Origin: a virus
Direction: 5' to 3' (one strand)
IMG/VR virus record: IMGVR_UViG_3300025326_000204
Location: 1-23,619 of that record
Length of the DNA: 23,619 bases
Notes under the pieces: generated by a model
The model's database searches: none
What the model saw: the letters and a program-made list of their open reading frames with translations, nothing else
What the model was told of the DNA's origin: nothing
Made by a program: the position numbers and the translations under genes
Shown: positions 21,239 to 23,619 of the stretch, piece by piece
How positions within the stretch are numbered: the first letter of the stretch is position 1
How the letters are laid out: each line of letters starts with the position of its first letter

Positions 21239-22686
21239 GTGATCGGGAAGAGCTTCAGGCACTACGCCGCTTGGCGGAGCTTGAGGCGAAAGCCGGGGAT
21301 AAACCTCAAACCATCGGCCATTTGCAAGGCCTCTTACGCCAGTACGCGCATACGGCTGCGTTCGGTTTCGATGATGAGCTAGCCGGCGCCGCATCGGCGG
21401 CCACGGGCGGCGAGTACAAGAGCGCCCGCGATGCGTATCTGAGCGAGCGCGAGCGGTACGCAGACGAAAATCCGGGCAAGAGCTTAGCCGCTGGTATTGC
21501 TGGCGCCCTTGCTCCGGGTGGGGCGGTCGCCAAGGGCGTTATGAGGGGCGCTGCGGCGCTGCCGACGTGGGCGCAGACGGCCACCATTGGCGGGATCACT
21601 GGCGGCGCCCAGGGCGCCGGGGACGCGGACGACGGCGACCGGGCAGCAGGAGCATTGACCGGGGGCGTATTCGGCGCGGCGACGGGCGCGGCCCTTCCTG
21701 CTGTGATCAAAGGAGCGGGGAACGCGTATCGCAGCGTGGTCGGTGTGGATGACGTGATGCCCTCCGCCCCGTCCTTAAAGGAAGCAGCGACGCGCGGCTA
21801 TGAACAGGCCCGGAACATGGGCCTGGAAGTGAAGCCCGAGGCGATCCAGGGCGCGGCCGGCAGGATTCGGCAGACGCTATCCGATGCCGGGTACCGCGAC
21901 TACCTGGCGCCCAAGACATTTCGCGCGCTGTCCGAGATGGAGACTGCGCAGACCGGGACGATTGCTGACCTTGAGGGGATTCGGCGGCTGTTGAGCAAGG
22001 CGGGCGGTGATCTCGCGGAGCGAGATGCCGTGCGGGTCGCCATCGGCCAGCTCGATGACTTCGCGCACACCATTTCGCCCGACGACGTGTTGAGCGGCGA
22101 TGCTGGCGCAGCAACCAAGGTATTGGGCGAGGCGCGCGCGAATTACGCCGCGTCGAAGCGGGCTGAATTGATCGCAGAGGCATTGCGAAAGGCGGAGCTT
22201 CAAGCAAGCTCTGCGGGCTCTGGCTCGAACATCGATAACGCCATTCGGCAGCAAATCAAATCGCTGCTGAATAACCCCAAGAAAGTGCGCGGGTTCTCTG
22301 CTGAAGAACTGGCGCAAATGCGAACGGTCGTCGAAGGCTCGAAGCTCGGCAATGCAGCCCGCCTTGTCGGGAAGTTCGCGCCTACGGGGGTCGTTTCAGG
22401 CGCTCTGTCGGGCGGTGCTGGCTTGGCTGTGGGCGGTCCAGTCGGGGCAGTTGCTTTGCCGGCGGCTGGCCTTGCGGGCAAGGCCATAGGTGACGCCACG
22501 ACCCGGCGGCTAGCGGAGACTCTTAGTCAGACGGTACGCAGCCGCGCCCCGGCGGCGGCCGGGATTCAGTTACCCGGACTTCCCGCCCTCTCCCCTAAAA
22601 CCCAGGCGCTAATCGCGGCCCTGATGGGGCAGGGCGAAGGCGGCCTGTATCAGAAATCAATCCAACGGCCGTACACGGCACGGTGA
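21235..22686 (+). CDS. ejection protein with glycine-zipper hydrophobic segments
   Basis: A 483-residue protein, third of the internal-protein set. Two Gly/Ala-rich hydrophobic regions stand out: about 81-165 (AAGIAGALAPGGAVAKGVMR, ATIGGITGGAQGAG, GGVFGAATGAALPAVI) and about 385-420 (SGALSGGAGLAVGGPVGAVA). Their GxxxG-like spacing suits insertion into a membrane after ejection. Between them is a helical, charged middle. It replaces T7 gp16 by position but is much smaller and shows no lytic transglycosylase motif. The ATGA start is coupled upstream. The 3' end overlaps a reverse-strand membrane-protein gene. Confidence 0.72.
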   Translation: MSDREELQALRRLAELEAKAGDKPQTIGHLQGLLRQYAHTAAFGFDDELAGAASAATGGEYKSARDAYLSERERYADENPGKSLAAGIAGALAPGGAVAKGVMRGAAALPTWAQTATIGGITGGAQGAGDADDGDRAAGALTGGVFGAATGAALPAVIKGAGNAYRSVVGVDDVMPSAPSLKEAATRGYEQARNMGLEVKPEAIQGAAGRIRQTLSDAGYRDYLAPKTFRALSEMETAQTGTIADLEGIRRLLSKAGGDLAERDAVRVAIGQLDDFAHTISPDDVLSGDAGAATKVLGEARANYAASKRAELIAEALRKAELQASSAGSGSNIDNAIRQQIKSLLNNPKKVRGFSAEELAQMRTVVEGSKLGNAARLVGKFAPTGVVSGALSGGAGLAVGGPVGAVALPAAGLAGKAIGDATTRRLAETLSQTVRSRAPAAAGIQLPGLPALSPKTQALIAALMGQGEGGLYQKSIQRPYTAR

Positions 22687-22820
22687 GCGAATTGCATTAT
22701 CGCGACGCCGGATAAAACGCCCAGGTCGAACTGCCAGCCGGCTTCCTTCATCCCAATGATGAAGCCGATTGTGACGGCCGCGACAAAAAACAATCCGAAG
22801 ATTTTTTGAAGTGCAGTCAT
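22650..22820 (-). CDS. reverse-strand small two-TM protein, holin candidate
   Basis: A 56-residue protein read from 22820 down. It has two hydrophobic stretches, about 7-24 (IFGLFFVAAVTIGFIIGM) and about 31-43 (FDLGVLSGVAIMQF), with a short charged loop (KEAGWQ) and a basic end (HRAVYGRW). The ATG follows GGAGGG after only three bases. It fills the 172-base gap between two plus-strand genes, and it overlaps the ejection gene by 37 bases. Size and layout suit a small holin, but no endolysin is in the window. Caution: the apparent Shine-Dalgarno site is also part of the terminator hairpin, so its support is weaker than it looks. The longer start at 22865 is unlikely. Confidence 0.55.
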   Translation of the reverse strand: MTALQKIFGLFFVAAVTIGFIIGMKEAGWQFDLGVLSGVAIMQFAHRAVYGRWIDF

Positions 22821-22841
22821 AAGCCCTCCGGGGCTTTTTTT
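22821..22841 (+). terminator. rho-independent terminator before the tail-fibre gene
   Basis: AAGCCC (22821-22826) pairs with GGGCTT (22831-22836) around a TCCG loop and is followed by a run of T to 22841. It lies downstream of the ejection genes and just upstream of the fibre Shine-Dalgarno site. On the reverse strand the same hairpin contains the putative Shine-Dalgarno site of the small membrane-protein gene. Confidence 0.8.
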
Positions 22842-22845
22842 GTTT

Positions 22846-22851
22846 AAGGAG
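22846..22851 (+). promoter_or_regulatory. Shine-Dalgarno site pointing to an ATC start
   Basis: AAGGAG lies seven bases before the ATC at 22859. No ATG, GTG or TTG occurs between this site and the GTG at 23006. A site this good at ideal spacing is the main evidence for where the tail-fibre gene begins. Confidence 0.75.
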
Positions 22852-22858
22852 AGCCGCC

Positions 22859-23619
22859 ATCGCACGCGACGGATCAGGAAACTACAGCCTGCCTAGTGGT
22901 AACCCGGTAGTAACCGGGGCCGAGATTAGTTCGACGACCAACAACACCACCCTGACCGATATCGCCACGGCCCTGACTGGCTCGCTGACGAAAAACGGCG
23001 AGGCGGTGGCAACGGCCAATCAACCCATGGGCGGCTTCCGTCATACCAATGTCGATGATGCATCCGCACGGACGGATTATGCAAGAGCCGACCAAGTGCA
23101 GGACGGCACGCTGACGTACCTGACCAGCGTCGCCGGCACAAACACGATTACAGCAACCGCCGCTCTTTCTATAGCGGCTTATGCCACCGGGCAGATGTTC
23201 CATTTCATCCCGGCGAATACCATCACGGCCGCCGCGACGCTCAATATCAATTCGATTGGCGCAAAAAATATCTACTATAAGGGCGCGGCGGCTGGTGCAT
23301 CCGTGCTTCAGGCCAATATCCCTGCGATTGTCATCTACGACGGAACGCAATTCCAGGTTGTCGGAACACCTACGGCGGGATCGTGGATTCCGATAGAAAC
23401 TCTCACGGCATCGGCCTCAGCAGCGCTCGATTTCGATCTCGGTATCAATTCCACTTATAACGCCTATGCCCTTGTGATCACGGGACTGATTCCGGCGACC
23501 GATGACGTGCAATTGTTACTGAGGATCGCAACGTCCGGCCCGACGTGGCAAGCAGGGGCGGGGGCGTATCAGTGGGGTGCTGGGATTGTATCCATAGGCG
23601 GAACATTTACTGGGGATGG
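22859..23619 (+). CDS. tail fibre / tail spike protein, partial, probable ATC start
   Basis: The frame is open from 22859 to the window end (253 complete codons) and is cut there. The predicted N-terminus, (M)ARDGSGNYSLPSGNPVVTG then NNTTLTDIATALTGSLTKNG, is the conserved start of many podovirus tail fibres that attaches to the tail. Beta-rich, Ala/Thr-rich segments follow (LTYLTSVAGTNTITATAAL, MFHFIPANTITAAATLNIN). The next in-frame ordinary starts, GTG 23006 and ATG 23027, would remove this conserved part. The fibre binds the host receptor. The gene is the last of the late run and is separated by a terminator from the ejection genes. Confidence 0.82.
   Translation, partial: MARDGSGNYSLPSGNPVVTGAEISSTTNNTTLTDIATALTGSLTKNGEAVATANQPMGGFRHTNVDDASARTDYARADQVQDGTLTYLTSVAGTNTITATAALSIAAYATGQMFHFIPANTITAAATLNINSIGAKNIYYKGAAAGASVLQANIPAIVIYDGTQFQVVGTPTAGSWIPIETLTASASAALDFDLGINSTYNAYALVITGLIPATDDVQLLLRIATSGPTWQAGAGAYQWGAGIVSIGGTFTGD

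Follow-up and report, generated by a model that had tools for sequence, protein, structure and literature searches.

The window analysed here, an entire IMG/VR viral record of 23,619 bases, is apparently a fragment of a podovirus-like phage. It ends within a tail-fibre gene on the plus strand (22859..23619), of which 253 codons are present, counting an ATC at the position of the start codon (22859..22861). A sequence-only reading of the window had placed AAGGAG at 22846-22851, seven bases ahead of this ATC, with a frame open to the window end and no in-frame ATG, GTG or TTG between the preceding stop and the ATC. These positions were borne out on the window sequence, and the frame is indeed open to 23619, where the metagenomic contig stops within the gene. 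The AAGGAG is contained in an extended Shine-Dalgarno (SD) sequence, TAAGGAG (22845..22851, plus strand), with seven contiguous matches to the anti-SD and a duplex energy of -9.2 kcal/mol; the 7-nt spacer to the ATC is AGCCGCC. The codons following the ATC, GCA CGC GAC GGA TCA GGA, specify A-R-D-G-S-G, and the N-terminus continues with N-Y-S-L-P. Upstream, the frame is bounded by a TAA (22820..22822, plus strand). Between this stop and the ATC it reads GCC CTC CGG GGC TTT TTT TGT TTA AGG AGA GCC GCC and includes neither an NUG nor another AUN codon. The first in-frame NUG is a GTG at 23006..23008, which would be the start for a gene caller restricted to NUG codons, followed by an ATG at 23027.

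Just upstream of the SD, a terminator-like hairpin, AAGCCC-TCCG-GGGCTT with a T-tract, was detected (22821..22841, plus strand). Its 6-bp stem has an energy of -10.3 kcal/mol, and it is a match to the consensus only, with 0.7 such matches expected per shuffle. A terminator-like hairpin or a GGCTTTTT-type tail directly upstream of the fibre SD is also present in L036, L100, L145, L148, L209, and L234. These arrangements suggest that the fibre mRNA may originate from read-through or from a promoter very near to the gene. Mutually exclusive leader hairpins, a terminator versus an SD-sequestering stem, were considered and dropped, as the fold was no better than that of shuffled sequences (z +1.1). 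The gap before the fibre gene harbors a small divergent ORF (22650..22820, minus strand) for a hydrophobic protein of 56 amino acids, which has a strong SD of its own and matched no Pfam or PHROG family. Small antisense ORFs, often hydrophobic, are found in the same place in L222, L226, L224, L145, L148, L209, L220, and others; in L222 the start codons of the fibre gene and the antisense ORF are only 14 nt apart and their SDs overlap. A link of these small genes to AUH starts (AUA, AUC or AUU; ATA, ATC or ATT, ATH, in DNA) is not claimed: the association over all loci, 4 of 6 against 10 of 142 loci (P 7e-4), was lost at a GC content of at least 0.5 (P 0.13). The 56-aa ORF is context, and the AUC start does not need it.

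Homologous N-termini were gathered from IMG/VR by protein and degenerate DNA patterns, and the codon at the start position was read. It is ATG in 156 of 163 distinct N-termini, generally behind an SD, which often resembles that of the window in type and spacing. L148, L133, and L135, the closest relatives for which the match is long, all have ATG. This alignment with homologues confirms the claim that the ATC stands exactly where the initiating Met belongs. Among the remaining seven are the window, the sole ATC in the collection, CTG in L208, GTG in L068, TTG in L137, L041 and L134 with ATG one codon off the family start position, and one unrelated match. In L208 (position 2998) and L218 (position 11233), the CTG follows GGGAGGG with no in-frame NUG upstream and is a candidate CUG start. 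In Bradyrhizobium phage ppBjS10J-1, the annotated fibre start is an ATGGAG, and the codon at the family position is TTG. The isolate phages Mx8 and Mx9 were dropped from the comparison, as an N-terminal extension makes them not comparable.

The window N-terminus shows up to 68% identity to fibre N-termini of many viral contigs and 54% to that of phage BUCT555, and the gene has the conserved motif and the N-terminal domain of about 70 residues of ARDGSG/RNGSG-type phage tail fibres. Cut as it is by the contig end, it gave no Pfam match and a weak PHROG match to 'virion structural protein'; the Collar domain PF07484 is present in the intact AUU-starting relatives L222 and L226. A DNA similarity search of a phage collection with the window gave no match. 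Searching for prophages by genome class yielded four matches in about 750 genomes, three of which were ATG-starting genomes already in the set, while the fourth had ATG directly before the aligned motif.

The window ATC occurs in one metagenomic record without a near-identical copy, and together with the prevalence of ATG among the relatives this could indicate a sequencing or assembly error at 22861 in a phage that truly has ATG. A strict-motif ATH scan of IMG/VR revealed one record besides the window, L214, with ATC behind CGGGAGGG; this contig ends 19 codons past its ATC. When the downstream part of the motif was relaxed, 13 contigs representing six lineages beyond the window were obtained. 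ATT is found in a set of five nearly identical contigs, each from a different metagenome (L222=L223=L228=L232=L233), and in the single contigs L225 and L226, ATC in L214 and in L229=L230=L231, and ATA in L224=L227. Most AUH cases fall in the TLPQ subfamily, and an ATH scan of genome contigs gave no match. In the window, L214, the L222 group, L225, and L226, no in-frame NUG precedes the ATH codon down from the upstream stop. L224 and L229 count as weaker cases because an in-frame ATG is located 12 nt upstream, overlapping the GGAGG SD and without a clear SD of its own. An ATGGAG(G) of this kind, which precedes the family start codon in frame and whose ATG overlaps the SD, was seen in L224 (13306), L229 (3585), and L234 (380); it could be either a start giving a short N-terminal extension or a coincidence borne by the SD. 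The 93-kb L226 record also contains a second, short fibre-like gene (L242:7626-8225; MSFTNGVYTPPSGAENAFPGQVIASATWN...), which has ATG and follows the AUU fibre at a distance of about 3-4 kb.

In clean comparisons, the L222-type contigs differ pairwise by 3-12 SNPs per 5 kb, with mostly synonymous differences in the fibre gene, while the 60-nt leader and the ATT are invariant. A single assembly error cannot explain this group, because SNP-distinct contigs keep leader and ATT. The sequence-only reading had offered an error of sequencing or assembly, or a mutation in a single virion lineage, as the competing view; the finding that six more lineages have AUH at this codon, one of them in five separate assemblies, weakens it. 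Since related fibres of metagenomic phages also start with AUC, AUU or AUA, AUH fibre starts are probably real biology rather than a sequencing slip; for the window ATC itself, with one record, an artefact is unlikely.

The SD sequences point in the same direction. Duplex energies with the anti-SD ranged from -8.5 to -10.8 kcal/mol in the seven AUH leaders (median -10.0), compared to a median of -7.1 in 130 distinct ATG fibre leaders (one-sided P 1.3e-5). The difference persisted at a GC content of at least 0.5 (-9.7 versus -6.6, P 4e-4). AUH fibre SDs also rank at or near the top within their own contigs, even though each control gene (150 aa or longer) was scored from the NUG start most favourable to it (stratified rank P 9e-5). 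The window fibre SD is stronger than 98% of the ATG fibre leaders and than those of all 17 other window genes of at least 150 aa, and it is equalled by shorter window genes starting at 1445, 1880, and 10353. This result is not built into the selection, because the search for AUH cases relied on the protein motif and ignored the SD. Strong SDs are a requirement of a weak start codon and unlike the outcome of a random base error: an error at 22861 would not explain why the SD is among the strongest in the contig, with a strength reached by about 2% of the ATG fibre leaders. An erroneous base is thus quite improbable. The CTG in L218 and most GTG and TTG cases are also located behind strong SDs. 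Distances to the previous gene have a median of 7 nt for ATG fibres, or 77 nt at a GC content of at least 0.5, and measure 101-185 nt for those AUH fibres in which they could be determined, so that translational coupling is no substitute for a start codon.

If the fibre started downstream, at GTG 23006 or ATG 23027, the first in-frame NUG codons would be used, but about 48 codons matching the family N-terminus would be left untranslated. These codons evolve as protein. Over codons 2-49, the proportions of synonymous and nonsynonymous differences between the window and ATG relatives are 0.64-0.82 (pS) and 0.23-0.25 (pN). The three ATT lineages show 69-79% amino acid identity in this part despite near-saturated synonymous change (pS 0.88 and pN 0.19 for L222 versus L226, 0.90 and 0.20 for L222 versus L225, 0.68 and 0.25 for L226 versus L225), which indicates that the codons behind the AUU are conserved at the protein level; for L224 (ATA) versus L229 (ATC), dS is 1.23 and dN 0.04. 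With pN well below pS, a downstream start is very improbable, the least probable of the alternatives. Another one is that a single genome has recently undergone a real ATG-to-ATC mutation and is a start-loss variant, not maintained, whose fibre is impaired or missing. While the ATG of L148, L133, and L135 would fit such an event, the strong SD and the persistence of AUU-starting relatives show that such starts can work, and no decay is apparent across the 253 codons of the fibre frame. We consider start loss improbable, marginally more so than a base error.

The tree of 157 N-termini, which has low resolution, requires at least four changes for the seven AUH rows and supports the groups L222+L225+L226 and L224+L229. 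As the relaxed scan took ATH only, the AUH pattern fits inheritance as well as repeated origin. Within this ATH-only scan, ATT is found in three lineages separated by near-saturated synonymous change, the window lineage being a single record.

The frequency of AUH starts could be estimated roughly. A crude capture-recapture calculation, in which the contig names of 7 of 25 pattern-matching relatives recurred in a sample of 120 contigs, puts the number of IMG/VR contigs with the strict N-terminal pattern at about 430, and about half of them belong to the second-codon class covered by the strict ATH scan. The window and L214 would then correspond to roughly 1% AUH among strict-pattern fibres. 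No AUH besides the window was detected in the untargeted sample of 163 N-termini, and there were no clear cases among about 180 control phage ORFs with defined starts. These numbers of fibre N-termini and control ORFs do not show AUH to be more frequent in fibres than in other phage genes.

Taken together, the fibre is very likely translated from the AUC at 22859-22861, with the strong SD compensating, the yield presumably lowered and initiation perhaps sensitive to IF3. Initiation at the codon itself is supported by the independent AUH lineages and the unusually strong SDs. The ordinary initiator tRNA, fMet-tRNA, would decode the AUC, presumably at a reduced rate. The long UAAGGAG helix at optimal spacing would keep the 30S subunit over the codon and thereby make up for the third-base mismatch, and the fibre yield should be below that from AUG, which may be of use to the phage. 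As at infC, initiation may also be sensitive to IF3, and regulation of the fibre by this factor is plausible. Both expectations draw on the parallels with infC, sigR, cvfC1, and ccpN (PMC5472188, PMC13009471), and the interpretation given in the sequence-only reading is supported in part.

Why such a start should exist is a separate matter. AUC initiation could be real and purposeless if the strong SD leaves the third base nearly free to drift, an account that agrees with translation from AUC on the initiation step and disputes the reason only. AUH, CTG (L208/L218), GTG, and TTG all occur at the fibre start codon, mostly behind strong SDs, as expected from drift. However, AUU or AUA in place of AUG costs about 90% of expression in S. 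aureus (PMC13009471), a loss that is probably not neutral in the case of a virion component, and ATT is common to three diverged lineages; both arguments are indirect. Drift comes close to an even chance in our estimation. A less probable proposal sees more in AUH starts and the extended SDs that compensate for them: in a group of podovirus-like phages they would be a device, maintained over time, by which tail-fibre synthesis is capped and tied to IF3 or the translational state of the host. The leader would stand alone, uncoupled from other genes and often opposite a small divergent membrane gene.

A family of AUH-starting fibres would allow testing whether phages dose fibres by initiation. 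With ATG, GTG, TTG, CTG, ATT, ATC, and ATA at one site of one gene, a natural series would be available that tests the trade-off between SD strength and start codon. In addition, gene callers accepting only ATG, GTG or TTG would clip fibre N-termini, in the window by 49 codons that include most of the conserved N-terminal domain.

AUC is a very rare start codon, and the few natural AUH starts in bacteria and phages have mostly been studied in cellular genes such as infC. In E. coli, pcnB has AUU as a natural low-yield start, and gene 26 of phage T4 contains an internal AUU start giving a shorter product. Both are different genes from the window fibre; T4 gene 26 would be a precedent in a phage structural gene, but differs in that the start is internal. 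Podovirus-type tail fibres with the N-terminus M-[A/S/P]-R-[D/N]-G-S-G-x-Y-x-L-P share the N-terminal domain of the window gene at the same position and nearly all start with AUG, the window and a few lineages being exceptions.

A close parallel is infC, a gene repressed by IF3 whose start codon is ATT in E. coli and ATC in Streptomyces (PMC5472188); IF3 disfavours weak third-base pairs in vitro (PMC10158994). In S. aureus, infC starts with AUA, and extended SDs are predicted to direct start selection there as well as at cvfC1 (AUU) and ccpN (AUA) (PMC13009471). The window fibre thus shares with infC an AUH start, including a documented AUC, and the extended SD of the S. aureus site (PMC5472188, PMC13009471), but infC is a cellular gene with demonstrated autoregulation, while the fibre is a phage structural gene. 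Reporters of cvfC1, ccpN, and citZ (AUA) reached about 10% of the AUG yield in poor medium (PMC13009471); unlike the fibre, these bacterial genes with AUU or AUA starts have been studied by ribosome profiling and reporters. Streptomyces sigR also has a non-NUG start, but GTC rather than AUH, and its repression by IF3, which holds the protein below the level of its partner, is experimentally proven (PMC5472188). The window fibre joins these AUH-start genes and stands out as a member of a phage virion gene family in which such starts recur in several lineages.
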